Positions 2,979-38,938 are shown, numbered from the stretch's first letter. The stretch is DNA of 39,100 bases from a virus (IMGVR_UViG_3300044697_000046:1-39100); one strand, 5' to 3'. Made by a program: numbers and translations. The notes: generated by a model from the sequence alone, not told the origin.

Positions 2979-3014
2979 ATTTTATGTTGACATTATGTTA
3001 AAATGAATTATACT
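2979..3014 (+). promoter_or_regulatory. Promoter with conserved 28-bp operator (copy 1), upstream of the NAD operon
   Basis: The -35 TTGACA (2987-2992) and -10 TATACT (3009-3014) are 16 bases apart. Bases 2979-3006 match two other sites (37215-37242 and 37752-37779): ATTTTATGTTGAYATT, four variable bases, then TAAAATGA. The ends ATTTTA/TAAAAT are inverted. It overlaps the -35 and spacer, the usual place for repressor binding. A minus-strand TATAAT overlaps the -10, so the site may also control the endolysin. Confidence 0.8.
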
Positions 3015-3043
3015 GCTTTTAGATTGAATAAGGAAGGAAAATA

Positions 3044-3832
3044 ATGATAGAAAATGATAAAATATCAAGCTTTAAGTTTCCTGCTGGAGAGGTGCAGGTA
3101 AAGTACAATATATCAATTTTAGACGATCATGCATTAACAACGTTTAAAATTAGAGATTCAGATGATATTATCTGCTTAATTCAATTTTTAGATTTTTATA
3201 AATATTCAAGAGAAAAATATTGTCCTAAAATATTAATTCCTTATCTTCCATTTTCTAGAATGGATAGAAAAATAAGTAATTATGCATTTTCGCTAAGGGC
3301 TTTTGCTGATTTATTAAATAACTATGATGCTGAAATATATACGGTGGATGTTCATTCAAATGCCGCTAGTTTTTTAATTAAAACCTTTATCAATATCGAC
3401 CCTATTAATTATCAAAATAGCTTTCTAGGTTATTGTGATGCTAGAACATTAATAATTCCTGATTTAGGTGCGTATAAGCGATATCCAGAATTATTAAAGT
3501 TAAATGAATTTAATAATTCCATTGTGCAGTGTAATAAAATAAGAGATTCATCAGGAAATATTACAAAAACAGAAGTATATGGAAATGTAAAAGATAAAAA
3601 TTGCATTATTTTTGACGATATTTGCGATGGAGGAGCAACCTTTATTGAATTGGCTAAAAAGCTAAAAGAGCAAGAGGCAGGTAAATTATTCTTATTTGTC
3701 ACGCATGGCATATTTTCTAAAGGATTGGATGAGCTGTTTAATTATTACGATATTATAGGATGTACAGATTCATTAGCGCCTTATGAATTTGCCAGTAAAT
3801 ATTTACATAACTTTAAGGTAATATCATTATGA
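3044..3832 (+). CDS. PRPP-synthetase-like enzyme; probable ADP-ribose pyrophosphate synthetase (Adps-like)
   Basis: 262 residues, shorter than cellular Prs (about 315). Family landmarks in order: FPAGE (12-16), IPYLPFSRMDRK (65-76), DVH (102-104), CNKIRD (163-168, flexible-loop lysine region), the phosphoribosyl-binding loop DDICDGGAT (191-199) and VTHGIFS (219-225). Canonical Prs makes PRPP from ribose-5-phosphate and ATP. In NARP1 phages the related enzyme Adps makes ADP-ribose-pyrophosphate from ADP-ribose. The overlap with the NAMPT-like gene (ATGA at 3829) makes the NARP1 role likely, but substrate choice cannot be read from sequence. Start: AAGGAAGG site. Confidence 0.85.
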   Translation: MIENDKISSFKFPAGEVQVKYNISILDDHALTTFKIRDSDDIICLIQFLDFYKYSREKYCPKILIPYLPFSRMDRKISNYAFSLRAFADLLNNYDAEIYTVDVHSNAASFLIKTFINIDPINYQNSFLGYCDARTLIIPDLGAYKRYPELLKLNEFNNSIVQCNKIRDSSGNITKTEVYGNVKDKNCIIFDDICDGGATFIELAKKLKEQEAGKLFLFVTHGIFSKGLDELFNYYDIIGCTDSLAPYEFASKYLHNFKVISL

Positions 3833-5289
3833 TTTTAAGACCAGAACTGTTAATCGATGGCTATAAACTTGATCATAAAAGACAATATCCTGATAATACA
3901 ACACTAATTTTTTCTAATTTTACGGCAAGAAAATCCAGAAGAGATTTAGATAATATCGTATTTTTCGGCCTACAATATTTCATTAAAGAATATCTTATCA
4001 ATGGTTGGGGTGAATTTTTCAAACAAGATTTTAACTCTGTTGCTGATAAGTTTAGTAGAGAAATAGATTCATATCTTGGCCCCAATCAAGTGGGGATTCA
4101 TCATTTATTTTCGTTGCATAATTTAGGTTATTTACCTATTAAAATTATGGCATTACCGGAAGGTTCGATTGTGCCCATTAAAGTGCCACCATTAGTTATT
4201 TATAATACTCACCCTGACTTTTCATGGTTAGTCAATTATTTAGAAACATTATTAAGCGCAACATTGTGGGGCGCATGCACAAGCGCTACCACTGCATTTG
4301 AATATAAAAAGCTTTTAACTAAGTATGCAAAAGAAACAGACCATCTTAATGTCGGATTTGTTGATTTTCAAGCTCATGATTTTTCAATGCGAGGTATGTT
4401 TGGATTAGAAGCAGCGATGATAAGTGGAGCTGCTCATTTAACTTCTTTTAAAGGTTCTGATACATTACCTGCTATTGATTTTATAAAAGAATACTATCAT
4501 GGTGAGCTAGCTGCTGATGTTATAGCTATGAGCGTTCCGGCCACTGAGCATAGCGTGATGTGTGCTGGCGGAAAAGATACAGAACTCGATACAATCCATA
4601 GATTAATAACGAAAGTATATCCTTCTGGGATTGTATCTATAGTAAGTGATACATGGGATTTTTGGCATACATTAACTTTTACATCTAATGTTTTAAAAAC
4701 AGAAATTATGGCGCGTGATGGTAAAGTTGTATTCCGTCCCGATAGCGGAGACCCTGTTAAGATTATTTGTGGTGATTCTGACGCTGATCTGTCATGCGCC
4801 AATAAAGGTGCTATTGAATGCCTATGGGACATATTTGGCGGCACTGTTAATAGCCAGGGCTATAAAGTATTAGACTCGCATATTGGTTTAATCTATGGCG
4901 ACAGCATTACACTGGAACGAGCCAAGCAAATATGTGAAGGGTTAAAGCGCAAAGGCTTTGCTAGCACCAATATTGTGTTAGGTATTGGTTCATATACATA
5001 CCAACACGTTACACGTGATACTGATGGTTGGGCAATGAAAGCTACTTACGCCGAAATTGATGGCAAGCCAGTTGAAATATTCAAAGACCCATTAACAGAT
5101 AGTGGCATTAAAAAATCAGCCAAAGGACTTCTTGCAGTATATGAAAATAATGAAACTTATGAGCTTAAAGAACAAGCCTCATGGGCTGAAGTTAACAAAT
5201 GCGCCTTCCGGGTTATATTTGAAAATGGTGAGATTAATAGCGACCAATCATTAGGATTCATAAGAGAGAGATTAAATGACAGAACATAA
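3829..5289 (+). CDS. nadV: Nicotinamide phosphoribosyltransferase-like enzyme (NAMPT/NadV; probable Namat of NARP1)
   Basis: 486 residues, full length for the NAMPT family. Landmarks: DGYKLDHKRQYP (10-21), R188 near the nicotinamide site, D211 (GSDT), the catalytic histidine H241 (ATEHS), and R303-PDSGDP with D305, matching human D219, H247, R311 and D313. YGDSI is at 356-360. NAMPT joins nicotinamide to PRPP to give NMN. In NARP1 the homologue Namat joins nicotinamide to ADP-ribose-pyrophosphate to give NAD+ directly. Its coupling to the Prs-like gene favours the latter. It would rebuild NAD+ in host cytoplasm after NADase defence. Confidence 0.88.
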   Translation: MILRPELLIDGYKLDHKRQYPDNTTLIFSNFTARKSRRDLDNIVFFGLQYFIKEYLINGWGEFFKQDFNSVADKFSREIDSYLGPNQVGIHHLFSLHNLGYLPIKIMALPEGSIVPIKVPPLVIYNTHPDFSWLVNYLETLLSATLWGACTSATTAFEYKKLLTKYAKETDHLNVGFVDFQAHDFSMRGMFGLEAAMISGAAHLTSFKGSDTLPAIDFIKEYYHGELAADVIAMSVPATEHSVMCAGGKDTELDTIHRLITKVYPSGIVSIVSDTWDFWHTLTFTSNVLKTEIMARDGKVVFRPDSGDPVKIICGDSDADLSCANKGAIECLWDIFGGTVNSQGYKVLDSHIGLIYGDSITLERAKQICEGLKRKGFASTNIVLGIGSYTYQHVTRDTDGWAMKATYAEIDGKPVEIFKDPLTDSGIKKSAKGLLAVYENNETYELKEQASWAEVNKCAFRVIFENGEINSDQSLGFIRERLNDRT

Positions 5290-6451
5290 TCTAACATGGG
5301 AAGAAGCCAAAGAGGCGATGAAGCGTGGGGCTATTTGCAAGGGTAATATTCATAATAAATATAGATGGAATAACTCTTGTTTTGAAGTTTTTGCTGAACT
5401 TGAAAATAGATGGGTTACTCATCCGCTTCTTACGCTTGGTTGTCATATGGATAAATGGCTCATCGTTGAATTGACGGATTGTGAAATAATTAATAAACAT
5501 TTTACGTTAGATTGCACCACGCATGGCGGTTATGCTTTTAAATTTATGGATGAGTATAGCCCAGAACTTAAAAGGCACTGCATCCAAAAATTCACAGAAC
5601 AGCTTAAGCAAGATATGGATAATAGTTGCAAAATTATGATTCATAAATCATTAGAATTACAACCACGATGCATAGTTCATGGATTTGAATTTAATAATCT
5701 ATCTACTGTAGAAGAAACTCATCAACATTGCTTAGAGCAATGTAATTTATTGCAAAAATCACACTCAGCGGAGCTTAAGGCTTGCCAAGACTATTATTAC
5801 AAATTAGAGGAACAAAAAATGCAAGAACCAGTCAAAACATACTCTTTTGAAGAGGCGATTGCCGGGATGAAGGCTGGAAAGTTTTACCAAGCCATGATGC
5901 ATGATGCTTTTTCAATTTGCGTTTACAGAATATTTAATAATAGATTTCAATATTTTTCAAATGATAGGAATTGGGAAATTGCTAAAGTAAAATTAGATGA
6001 TATGTTATGCCAAGATTTTATCGAAGTCGAAAACCCAGAGAAGAAAGAGATTGAGAAAAAAGGTAACGAACTTAAATTGTCACTTAATGATATATCATTA
6101 GATTCATGTGGTAATGGAATTGAAGTTGGCGCAGGTGGTGATGATGTATTAATGACTTATGCTAAAAATAGAGAAATTGCCATTAACTGGGATAAAGCGT
6201 TGGCAACTTTCATGCGCTTAAAAGCCCATCCTTTGGCAAAAAGGATTGAGTATAAAATGGAACAATTTATTATTTCAGTTTCTCAAGATATTGAAAGATG
6301 CCTCATAATTGATTGTTATGATAAAGAAACAAAATCAACTCTTTTATCGCCATGTTTTAAATCAGAAAAAGATGCACGTCAATCAATTAAAGACATCGGC
6401 GAAGATAATATTATCGAAATGTTTAAAACGTTTTCTGGGCTGTATGAATAG
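5276..6451 (+). CDS. Two-repeat DUF2829/Tad2-like protein (weak resemblance)
   Basis: 391 residues with two similar domains, 7-65 (TWEEAKEAMKRG ... DKWLIVE) and 190-252 (SFEEAIAGMKAGK ... DFIEVE). The opening EEA--MK-G helix and closing hydrophobic strand resemble DUF2829, the family of the Thoeris antidefence protein Tad2, but similarity is weak by eye. The middle (about 90-185) is helical and rich in H, C and Q; the C-terminal third is unassigned. It overlaps the NAMPT gene by 14 bases, so it is the third gene of the NAD operon. A role in binding a nucleotide signal is only a hypothesis. Confidence 0.5.
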   Translation: MTEHNLTWEEAKEAMKRGAICKGNIHNKYRWNNSCFEVFAELENRWVTHPLLTLGCHMDKWLIVELTDCEIINKHFTLDCTTHGGYAFKFMDEYSPELKRHCIQKFTEQLKQDMDNSCKIMIHKSLELQPRCIVHGFEFNNLSTVEETHQHCLEQCNLLQKSHSAELKACQDYYYKLEEQKMQEPVKTYSFEEAIAGMKAGKFYQAMMHDAFSICVYRIFNNRFQYFSNDRNWEIAKVKLDDMLCQDFIEVENPEKKEIEKKGNELKLSLNDISLDSCGNGIEVGAGGDDVLMTYAKNREIAINWDKALATFMRLKAHPLAKRIEYKMEQFIISVSQDIERCLIIDCYDKETKSTLLSPCFKSEKDARQSIKDIGEDNIIEMFKTFSGLYE

Positions 6452-6589
6452 TTATTTCTTTTTCTTCTTGCTTTTTCCAGCAACAGAAAGAGCTATTGCT
6501 ATAGCTTGATCGCGTTTCTTACCATGAGCAATTTCAGTCTTAATATTTTCAGATACGTCTTTACGTGATGAGCCTTTTTTCAATGGCAT
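6452..6589 (-). CDS. Small basic phage protein, DUF6496-like
   Basis: 45 residues: [15 protein letters not shown] near the start, [16 protein letters not shown] in the middle, and a lysine-only tail. The K-G-S-S--- EN-----HGK---QA-AIAL pattern is that of DUF6496-type proteins common near phage structural genes. RBS AGGAGT. The stop lies directly against the stop of the plus-strand gene ending at 6451. Confidence 0.75.
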
Positions 6590-6600
6590 AATAAACTCCT

Positions 6601-6650
6601 AAAAAGCCGTGAAGGTTGCGCACTATTAGTAGTGCTTCACGGCTATTTTT
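6601..6650. terminator. Bidirectional Rho-independent terminator
   Basis: AGCCGTGAAG (6605-6614) pairs over 10 bp with CTTCACGGCT (6635-6644); the loop can form an inner GCACT/AGTGC stem. An A tract precedes it and a T tract follows, so it can act on both strands. It is beyond the convergent end of the NAD operon and inside the minus-strand small-gene run, so the 45-residue gene may depend on readthrough. Confidence 0.8.
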
Positions 6651-34071: not shown

Positions 34072-34295
34072 TAACAGACCAAGACCTAATAGCCAAACAG
34101 GCTGCGATTATACAAGCGCAAGAAATTTTAATAAATTCATTAAAATATGAGTCTAATAATATAGAAAATAGCAACAAGGAATTGCAGCAAGAAATATCCA
34201 TTGTAAATGTTTTATTAAATATGAAGCAAGAATATATTTTAAAGCTCAAAAAACGCCCAAAATTCATCATGATAATTAACAGGAGAAAGAAGTAA
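34059..34295 (+). CDS. Small coiled-coil protein (GTG start)
   Basis: 78 residues from the GTG at 34059, preceded by AAGGAGG; the upstream frame to 33987 (arginine-rich) lies inside the previous gene and lacks a site. Coiled coil at about 10-60 ([20 protein letters not shown]), basic end. Confidence 0.6.
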
Positions 34296-34720
34296 TGGCT
34301 ACTTTTCTAGAAGCAATGCAAGCATTAAAAGAAGGTTACACCATTTTAGCAAGATGTCCTCATCATACTTTTGCTATGAAAAATGGAATAATTGATTTTA
34401 AAAATCCAGAATTAGTAAAAAAATACTATCCAGATGCTAAGCCATCTTTTGAGCAAGAGGAGATAGATGGAGAGTGGGATATTATGGAAAACAATAAATA
34501 TCTAGAGGAAAAAATAGAGCATGGTGATTTTACTATAAGAACTCAAAATTGCTTATTACAACTTGGGATTTCCACTATTTCTGATTTAATTAAATTTACT
34601 GAAGCTGAGCTATATAAAACCCCTAATTTAGGAAAAAAATCATTAAGAGAAATAAAAGAAACTTTAGCAGAGAAAGGCCTTAAGCTTAAAGAATACGAAA
34701 ACATAAGGAAAGATAAATAA
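34295..34720 (+). CDS. DUF2829-like domain fused to an RNA polymerase alpha C-terminal domain
   Basis: 141 residues. Residues 1-64 ([11 protein letters not shown] ... GEWDIM) resemble the DUF2829-like repeats at 5276. Residues 72-134 align without gaps with the alpha CTD of RNA polymerase (TIRTQNCL ... [13 protein letters not shown]). R82, N85, C86, G113, K115, S116 and E119 correspond to E. coli R265, N268, C269, G296, K298, S299 and E302, the DNA-binding determinants for UP elements. It could bind promoter DNA or host transcription factors, or compete with host alpha. The alpha assignment is firm; the N-terminal call is weak. TAATG coupling upstream. Confidence 0.85.
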
Positions 34721-37214: not shown

Positions 37215-37251
37215 ATTTTATGTTGATATTCACATAAAATGATTTTGGAAT
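37215..37251 (+). promoter_or_regulatory. Conserved 28-bp operator, copy 2, before the HTH gene
   Basis: Bases 37215-37242 share the motif ATTTTATGTTGAYATT ... TAAAATGA. Here the inverted repeat is strongest (ATTTTATGT/ACATAAAAT, 9 bp). TTGATA (37223-37228) serves as -35 with a weak -10 (TGGAAT near 37246). It is immediately upstream of the HTH regulator, as for autoregulation. Confidence 0.75.
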
Positions 37252-37265
37252 AATTGGGGTTCAAT

Positions 37266-37763
37266 ATGAAAAATTTAAAAAGTAAAGGCAGGCCCTCTAA
37301 GGCTGAGATGTCGCCAGTTGCATTAGATGAAATTAAAAAATTTTTTGATGGCTATGCAAGCTTAAGAGCGGCTGCAAAAGTATTGGGCGTTTCTAGCACG
37401 GCGGCTTGGTCTTGGCGCCATGGGAAATTTAGACCGAAAGAAAAATATGTTAATAAAATGATTAAGCTTTCAAAAGGAGCCGTATCGAAAGATAAACTCA
37501 TGCATCAATTACCTAATAAACAACAGCAATATAATTCATTCTTAGACTATATGATGATTGTTCATATTAAACCAAAAGCAGATATCATGGGCTTAAAAGA
37601 TGTTGATTATTATAATAACTATACGCATCCTAAGGTTAAAAAGATTATTGAAAAGTATTCACTAAGTGAAATTGATATTCCTTTACTGCATGCTTTTTAC
37701 GGCGAGAGCTTAGATTATTGGATTAACATTGTTAAAAATTTTAATTTTACAATTTTATGTTGA
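37266..37763 (+). CDS. HTH transcription regulator (candidate repressor)
   Basis: 165 residues. RPSKAEMSPVALDEIKKFF then the helix-turn-helix SLRAAAKVLGVSSTAAWSWRHGKFRP (about 34-59), a Cro/YdaS-like pattern. The C-terminal part (LSEIDIPLLHAFYGESLDYW) is probably for oligomerisation. Start at the ATG at 37266; TTG at 37254 would be too close to the likely transcript start. It is the best candidate to bind the 28-bp operators, one of which is its own. Confidence 0.75.
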   Translation: MKNLKSKGRPSKAEMSPVALDEIKKFFDGYASLRAAAKVLGVSSTAAWSWRHGKFRPKEKYVNKMIKLSKGAVSKDKLMHQLPNKQQQYNSFLDYMMIVHIKPKADIMGLKDVDYYNNYTHPKVKKIIEKYSLSEIDIPLLHAFYGESLDYWINIVKNFNFTILC

Positions 37764-37787
37764 CATTAACTTAAAATGAGTTATCAT
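37752..37787 (+). promoter_or_regulatory. Promoter with conserved 28-bp operator (copy 3), for the recombination operon
   Basis: -35 TTGACA (37760-37765) and -10 TATCAT (37782-37787), 16 bases apart, as in the NAD promoter. The 28-bp block is 37752-37779, beginning over the last codons of the HTH gene. The likely transcript start (about 37794) falls at the 5' arm of the first leader hairpin. Confidence 0.8.
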
Positions 37788-38050: not shown

Positions 38051-38938
38051 ATGAAAAAGTTAAAAGGAGCTAAAGCTTCTGACTTATCCGTTAAAGACCC
38101 ACGTTTAACTATGCTATTATTTGGTGACCCGAAAGTTGGTAAATCAACATGCGGTCTAAGTTTTCCCAATGCATTTATATTTGACGTAGAGCGCATAACT
38201 AAAGTAAGCGCTGAGCATTTATCGCTTGCTCAAGAAAATAATAGCTGGATTAGTTATCCTGATTCAATAGATGAAATTCTTGAAGATATCAAAGAACTCA
38301 TGAGCAGCAAGCATGAATATAAAACTATCGTAATTGACTCATTAAGTGCAATTTATAGTGATTTGCTTTTGCAAAAAGAAAAGCTTGTAGGTTCTGAATT
38401 TGGCCGTCATATTGCAGAAGCAAATAAAGATATAAAACGTTTAATGTCGCTTCTATTTAAAATAGACATGAATGTTATTATTATCTGCCATTCGAAAACA
38501 AAATACGCTAAAGGTGGCGGAATGGTCGTAGAGGGCATGACATTTGATGTTTACGAAAAGCTTGGGTATGCTGTCGGTACAATATTAGAAATTCAGGCTA
38601 GAGGCTCTAAACGTGTGGCTTTAGTAAAGGGTTCTTGGTATAAAAATTCATTCTTGATGGGTGATAGTTTCGATTTTTCATACGATGAAATAAAGAAAAG
38701 ATTCAATTCTAATCGTTTAGAGTTAGAATCTGAACAAATAGAATTGGCTGATGATATTCTATTGAAAGAGCTTAATTCATTAATGGAATTATTCAGCATC
38801 ACAGCCGATATACAAGAAAAATGGCTAGATAAATTTAAGGTTGATAGATTTGAAGATATGGCGAAGGTTGATATGGAAACAATTATTAAATCAATAAACG
38901 ATAAATTTAACAGAATCAAGGAGGTTTCAAATGTTTAG
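38051..38938 (+). CDS. Sak4-like RecA-fold ATPase (single-strand annealing recombination)
   Basis: 295 residues, single domain. Walker A GDPKVGKST (25-33), Walker B strand TIVIDSLSAI (D96), and a sensor-like IIICHSK (about 141-147). This pattern (AAA_24, PF13479) is that of phage Sak4 annealases, which work with an SSB to repair and recombine phage DNA. The SSB gene follows with an 8-base overlap. RBS AAAAAGGA. Some PF13479 members have other roles; the SSB neighbour supports this one. Confidence 0.85.
   Translation: MKKLKGAKASDLSVKDPRLTMLLFGDPKVGKSTCGLSFPNAFIFDVERITKVSAEHLSLAQENNSWISYPDSIDEILEDIKELMSSKHEYKTIVIDSLSAIYSDLLLQKEKLVGSEFGRHIAEANKDIKRLMSLLFKIDMNVIIICHSKTKYAKGGGMVVEGMTFDVYEKLGYAVGTILEIQARGSKRVALVKGSWYKNSFLMGDSFDFSYDEIKKRFNSNRLELESEQIELADDILLKELNSLMELFSITADIQEKWLDKFKVDRFEDMAKVDMETIIKSINDKFNRIKEVSNV

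Follow-up and report, generated by a model that had tools for sequence, protein, structure and literature searches.

A candidate NARP1 pair with an orphan third gene under a shared operator in an uncultivated podovirus-like phage

Does a three-gene cassette of an uncultivated phage combine NAD+ reconstitution with the capture of a defence signal? The question is raised by positions 3,044 to 6,451 of IMGVR_UViG_3300044697_000046, a virus record from IMG/VR whose whole 39,100-base stretch was analysed and is called the window below. A preliminary description of this locus proposed a candidate NARP1 operon whose third gene possibly resembles Tad2, a sponge for the Thoeris signal. In related NARP1 systems, Adps makes ADP-ribose pyrophosphate (ADPR-PP) from ADP-ribose (ADPR), and Namat joins ADPR-PP to nicotinamide to produce NAD+, counteracting NADase defences (PMC12774641). 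As judged from sequence, the first two genes very probably constitute NARP1 in a repressor-controlled accessory cassette, with the third gene as an orphan accessory distinct from Tad2.

The Adps-like and Namat-like genes

The cassette consists of three overlapping open reading frames (ORFs) on the + strand.

3044..3832, + strand: gene 1, Adps (ADP-ribose pyrophosphate synthetase)-like protein of 262 amino acids (aa); basis, phrog_619 at 2e-63, TIGR01251 and tree
3829..5289, + strand: gene 2, Namat (nicotinamide ADP-ribose transferase)-like protein of 486 aa; basis, PDB 9w5x/9w5w, clamp and tree
5276..6451, + strand: gene 3, orphan third gene of 391 aa; codon usage as in a real gene, no matches in the collections searched

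Genes 1 and 2 overlap by ATGA, and genes 2 and 3 overlap by 14 nucleotides (nt). Codon usage in all three genes is like that of clear phage genes, whereas the alternative frames of gene 3 are unlike it. The ORFs, overlaps and family matches bear out the initial account of overlapping Prs-like and NAMPT-like genes followed by a coupled third gene.

The protein encoded by gene 2 is NAMPT-like (phrog_448, 2e-190; Pfam NAPRTase, 1.3e-47). In the PDB it is closest to 9w5x and 9w5w (2.6e-160), whose sequence and residue numbering agree with SPbetaL1 Namat (PMC12774641; also retrieved as OQ921341), an enzyme of biochemically proven activity that has been crystallised (PMC12774641). Gene 2 and SPbetaL1 Namat share ~54% identity, and the catalytic core is aligned and identical at Phe189, Arg192, Asp215, the catalytic His, Arg306 and Asp308; the nicotinamide- and ribose-binding residues are kept. 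The adenine-binding selectivity clamp of Namat comprises Arg40 in one loop and the motif GSX-Phi-X-Phi-X-Phi-TRD, in which positions 3 and 7 are aromatic (PMC12774641). In gene 2, Arg37 is aligned to Arg40 and the motif reads GSYTYQHVTRD, with Tyr at position 3 and His at position 7, and Tyr389 is the counterpart of F392; Nampt has GSGGGLLQKLTRD (human) or GMGGGLLQEVTRD (phage phT4A) at this site. In a maximum-likelihood tree in which the outgroup branches are long, gene 2 is placed inside the Namat side and is split from four phage Nampts at 95/99. By every published sequence feature, gene 2 would be a Namat. Its nearest neighbours in the tree include Shewanella, Rheinheimera and Collimonas proteins, which hints at a Pseudomonadota host.

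The Namat survey covered 80 viral Namat loci and the 80 best bacterial relatives of Namat (L098-L177). The canonical clamp is present in 76 of the 80 related viral proteins, and Adps lies within 400 nt of Namat in 58 of the 80 viral loci, a set that includes truncated contigs. All 80 bacterial relatives have the Namat clamp; they come mostly from Bacteroidota, with some from Shewanella, Rheinheimera and Burkholderiales; an Adps-type gene is on the same stretch in 58 of these 80.

Gene 1 encodes a Prs-like protein (phrog_619, 2e-63; PDB Prs matches down to 1.8e-16). Against the Prs model TIGR01251 it scores 112 bits (cut-off 113), close to the proven Adps of SPbetaL1 (106) and far from E. coli Prs (423), and in a tree including five further housekeeping Prs proteins it falls on the Adps side with support of 100/99. 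Its loop DDICDGGATF is of the type encoded next to Namat in viral loci, whereas Prs has DDMIDTGGT or DDMVDTAGT. In each of five bacterial genomes, a distinct Adps-type gene is present in addition to a housekeeping Prs. These features suggest that gene 1 would be Adps-like rather than a housekeeping Prs. The earlier term 'shortened' Prs is apt relative to E. coli Prs (315 aa), but the length is usual within the branch, in which phage Adps proteins have 250-297 aa.

The NARP1 assignment first put forward for genes 1 and 2, which would make them functional counterparts of Adps and Namat, agrees with the clamp, the catalytic residues, the position of both proteins in the trees and their linkage in one operon. 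In line with it, no Nmnat was noticed among the genes scanned, in a check that was not exhaustive. Some points weigh against this reading or its treatment of gene 3. The second stacking position of the clamp in gene 2 is His rather than Tyr or Phe; His at this position recurs in 6 of the 80 viral and 6 of the 80 bacterial relatives. Gene 1 is divergent, with a best identity of 39% in the tree and a long branch, and its position inside the Adps side is unsettled. The ADPR-binding determinants of Adps are not described in the cited literature. Finally, the tight 14-nt overlap makes a functional link between gene 3 and NARP1 possible.

It is very unlikely that genes 1 and 2 are an ordinary phosphoribosyl pyrophosphate (PRPP) salvage pair, Prs plus Nampt, producing nicotinamide mononucleotide from which a host adenylyltransferase completes NAD+: Namat does accept PRPP in vitro (PMC12774641) and family tools label the two proteins Prs and nicotinate/nicotinamide phosphoribosyltransferase, but the clamp residues, clade position and Adps-type loop are like those of proven NARP1 enzymes and unlike those of Prs and Nampt.

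Under the NARP1 reading, the cassette would be a 'moron' of a podovirus-like phage, under repressor control, and the pair would be expressed early or upon derepression. The Adps-like enzyme would pyrophosphorylate the ADPR left by NADase defences to yield ADPR-PP, and the Namat-like enzyme would use ADPR-PP and nicotinamide to form NAD+, resulting in a two-step restoration. NARP1 itself is known; the present locus is one more member, in which the third gene is an orphan and the operator is shared, and adds a well-supported candidate NARP1 in a small podovirus-like genome.

The third gene and the Tad2 question

Gene 3 has no match in Pfam, NCBIfam, PDB, PADLOC or tblastn searches. No full-length relatives were found in viral contigs, bacterial genomes or phage records, and comparison with 17,564 ORFs of the fetched loci gave chance-level matches only. 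Single-sequence AlphaFold2 models of the whole protein and of its second domain are of low confidence (predicted local distance difference test values of 38.7 and 48.0, respectively). Two domains can be delimited, and residues 7-65 and 190-252 open with a similar helix (TWEEAKEAMKRG and SFEEAIAGMKAG).

5276..5485, + strand: domain 1 (D1; aa 1-70), phrog_3474-like; 24.5 bits, HHalign 93% over 15 columns
5822..6049, + strand: domain 2 (D2; aa 183-258), weak internal repeat of D1; D1-D2 score, and a weak phrog_5587 match (E 0.001)

The local alignment of D1 with D2 scores 43, compared with 22.9 +/- 4.4 for shuffled sequences (P ~0.0025); because the two domains are weakly alike beyond shuffles, an internal repeat in gene 3 is plausible. 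Weak tblastn matches of D1 come from phages of Citrobacter, Klebsiella and Enterobacter; they are proteins or domains of 62-65 aa and are members of phrog_3474. With an 11-sequence phrog_3474 profile, D1 scores 24.5 bits, a value equalled by 0 of 1000 shuffles, and a held-out true member scores 60 (PHROG E-value of D1, 0.003); the match is limited to D1. A tblastn search with one phrog_3474 member matched 445 phage records, and this family is singled out as worth testing. D1 matches in E20-1/EK010, located within an unrelated-looking 300-aa protein, were set aside. Members of phrog_5587 and phrog_2709 were found in 0 of 398 Pseudomonadota genomes, in which controls were likewise without signal.

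The results for Tad2 differ. PF11195 (Tad2-like, DUF2829) has no match in D1 or D2 at E<=10, nor in the whole of gene 3 or the whole record at E<=1. A Tad2 profile was built from 13 sequences of solved and database Tad2 domains. In HHalign, this profile gives 0.6% for D1, 2.7% for D2 and 4.8% for both, over 13-14 columns only. HMMER --max yields 1.7 bits for D1 and 3.0 bits for D2, values reached by 12% and 3% of shuffles, respectively, whereas the positive control, a divergent but genuine Tad2-like domain left out of the profile, scores 29 bits. The pocket motif RxGWNGxG is absent from D1 and D2 in a motif check; the motif W..(S/T)..DxLAxDW is absent from D1 and is represented in D2 only by a partial DDMLCQDF. 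On the results of Pfam, HMMER --max, HHalign and the motif comparison, alongside a working positive control, a Tad2 identity of gene 3 is rejected; an RyR-domain (PF02026) identity is also rejected, with no match in gene 3 or the window.

The proposal of a Tad2-like third gene accordingly fails with PF11195, HMMER --max and HHalign, D1 being nearer to phrog_3474, and the weak DUF2829 resemblance that had been noticed is limited to ~14 residues of one helix. Between the profiles of phrog_3474 and Tad2, only a helix is common (HHalign 61%, 19 columns). A remote common origin of the two is possible because this helix is shared, but the helix is all that is shared.

The surroundings of NARP1 elsewhere provide a further view of gene 3. 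Across the 80 viral NARP1 loci there is no conserved third gene, and the genes downstream vary, encoding an RNA ligase, a capsid protein, DnaB helicase, a phosphoesterase, a SpoU methylase and proteins without assignment. ADPR-handling genes adjoin NARP1 in a few records. In one uncultivated virus (L024, IMGVR_UViG_3300037584_004880), a gene with an RyR domain (PF02026; 6795-7829) follows Namat at a distance of ~300 nt, Adps being just upstream, and this locus is apparently a RyDEP-type NARP1 operon. Macro-domain genes are present at NARP1 in 3 of 50 phages: by coordinates, between Adps and Namat in G037 (45771-46172), upstream of Adps in G016 (134002-134343), and, in Pseudomonas phage Kat (47495-47857), ~300 nt downstream, where the match is below the family cut-off. 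Phage Adele has a macro-domain gene downstream of NARP1 (PMC12846349). This distribution suggests that ADPR-handling domains may be recurrently paired with NARP1.

Tad2-like genes also occur in genomes with Namat. In G040, Namat is preceded at ~6 kb by a true Tad2-like gene. A clear Tad2-like gene (L095 1381-1761; 4.3e-28) lies ~6 kb upstream of Adps-Namat on one 22.8-kb viral contig (L059; IMGVR_UViG_3300007516_000169). Listeria phage WIL-1 (NC_025440) has both a Namat relative and DUF2829. In a 314 aa protein of a bacterial genome (L178 1450-2394, - strand), a Tad2-like domain at the C terminus is fused to an N-terminal part of greater length, and G342 has Tad2-like domains in multidomain proteins.

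Gene 3 is probably no required part of NARP1, and the likeliest guess is that it would be an independent host-takeover or counter-defence accessory. It would be translated from the common message as an orphan early phage protein with one small domain of phrog_3474 type and probably a degenerate second copy of it.

Among the other readings, a new ADPR-handling partner with a fold unlike Tad2 or RyR, for example a glycosidase, a binder or a delivery factor feeding Adps, is unlikely. The common operon and overlapping start would fit such a partner, as would the ADPR-handling partners near NARP1 in other phages (PMC12846349, PMC13232231), and the ADPR-handling genes that adjoin NARP1 in a few records leave an ADPR-related role a low probability. 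Against this, gene 3 has no detectable catalytic motif or relative, the downstream genes are unrelated in most NARP1 operons, and the closest family, phrog_3474, is widespread in phages without a known NAD+ link.

Still less probable is a Tad2-type sponge, or remote member of that fold, by which the operon would capture cyclic ADPR signals and repair NAD+. Translational coupling to NARP1, a helix F/WxxA..MK.G that occurs twice in gene 3 and resembles the N-terminal helix of Tad2, the helix common to the phrog_3474 and Tad2 profiles, the RyR-domain signal enzyme within the DyoEdafos NARP1 operon (PMC13232231) and the ADPR-handling neighbours at some viral loci (RyR in L024; macro in G016, G037 and Kat; Tad2 in G040) would favour it, but the missing PF11195 match, the low HHalign probabilities, the HMMER scores far below the control, and the absence of RxGWNGxG from both domains and of DxLAxDW from D1 stand against it. 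Because the Tad2 reading of gene 3 is unsupported, the claim of a single operon for signal capture and NAD+ repair is left with no positive sequence evidence.

There is similarly only a slim chance that gene 3 founds a two-domain family binding or cleaving cyclic ADPR-type signals together with NARP1, the helix possibly linking phrog_3474 and Tad2; if so, the widespread phage family phrog_3474 would be revealed as signal binders. Gene 3 is a concrete candidate accessory of NAD+ repair, in a setting where the signal-degrading RyDEP was just found.

Operator, candidate repressor and cassette borders

The region upstream of gene 1 recurs near the right end of the window, and a terminator-like hairpin lies past gene 3.

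2979..3014, + strand: operator ATTTTATGTTGACATTATGTTAAAAT overlapping a sigma-70-like promoter; 11/12 promoter matches, consensus match
6605..6644, + strand: terminator-like hairpin followed by the T-run ATTTTTAT; -20 kcal/mol, z -4.0, 0/200 shuffles as stable
37215..37240, + strand: operator copy upstream of the helix-turn-helix (HTH)-like gene; its arms, ATTTTATGT-N8-ACATAAAAT, form a perfect inverted repeat of 9 bp
37266..37763, + strand: HTH-like protein of 165 aa, candidate repressor; HTH_50 at 0.0022, below cut-off, role from position
37752..37785, + strand: operator/promoter copy upstream of the Sak4-type recombination gene; 27/30 identical to the operon upstream region
38051..38938, + strand: Sak4-like single-stranded DNA-annealing/AAA protein; phrog_124 at 7.8e-25, AAA_24 at 2.4e-17

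The predicted promoter, TTGACA-16-TATACT at 2987-3014, agrees with the consensus at 11 of 12 positions. Exact copies of the 16-mer ATTTTATGTTGAYATT lie at 2979, 37215 and 37752; at up to three mismatches there are 14 sites, compared with 3.7 +/- 1.9 in shuffles of the window. The 30 nt upstream of the operon are identical at 27 positions to the sequence at 37750. These three exact 16-mers and the 27/30 match confirm the operator described as common to the operon and the recombination genes. The HTH-like protein would be the repressor of the three operators, and, because the operator is shared, we infer early or derepressed expression of the NARP1 pair. With the candidate repressor and the recombination region under this operator too, NAD+ repair may be turned on as part of the early programme.

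Gene overlaps, promoter, terminator hairpin and codon usage lead us to read 2979-6451 as a single accessory cassette. It is flanked on the opposite strand by a lysozyme gene (2518-2970, - strand; phage_lysozyme, 8.5e-37) and, on the other side, by - strand genes toward the structural module. The hairpin is placed past a small gene (6452-6589, - strand) that encodes a basic protein of 45 aa and is convergent with, and abuts, gene 3. Elsewhere in the window, the 141 aa product of 34295-34720, possibly a factor for transcription take-over, carries the C-terminal domain of bacterial RNA polymerase alpha (PF03118, 1.2e-19), and 656-1255 encodes a VWA-domain protein of 199 aa (PF13519, 2.3e-8; phrog_5359, 1.5e-10). 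With the terminase as query, no close relatives of the phage were found.

Comparison with known systems

D1 begins with HNLTWEEAKEAMKRG, which matches NLTWEQAKQAMREG of phrog_3474/phrog_22208, and the similarity runs to about residue 62. Unlike gene 3, members of these families are mostly stand-alone proteins of 62-65 aa from enterobacterial phages, and none was seen within the NARP1 operons examined. With Tad2/DUF2829 (PF11195), gene 3 shares the short F/WxxA..MK.G helix motif, present twice, but it has no profile match or ligand-pocket motifs and is a multidomain protein of 391 aa, whereas Tad2 has ~90-100 aa.

In Manatee Spring podovirus ctKR88 (MW202524), a short Adps (250 aa) overlaps Namat, a repressor-like gene lies next to the pair, and exonuclease and AAA genes follow; in place of a gene 3-type third gene, the next genes encode a YHS domain and a C2H2 zinc finger. 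A NARP1 operon with an added gene is also found in mycobacteriophage DyoEdafos, for which the combination of NARP1 and a Thoeris-signal enzyme (RyDEP), an RyR-domain protein, in one operon was published in May 2026 (PMC13232231). There, the gene inserted into the operon, gp78, encodes a glycosidase with an RyR domain (PF02026), whereas the third protein of the window has no PF02026 match.

The NARP1 of the Bacillus phage SPbetaL1 has the same order, Adps-Namat, with overlapping ends. Its Namat is the ~54% identical protein discussed above, with the same catalytic residues and a clamp that is shared except for the second aromatic (His here), and its Adps lies on the same side of the tree with a similar level of match to the Prs model. 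The Adps loop differs, being DDLSSFGGTF in SPbetaL1 and DDICDGGATF here, and the window adds a third overlapping gene and an operator shared with the HTH-like gene and the Sak4 region.

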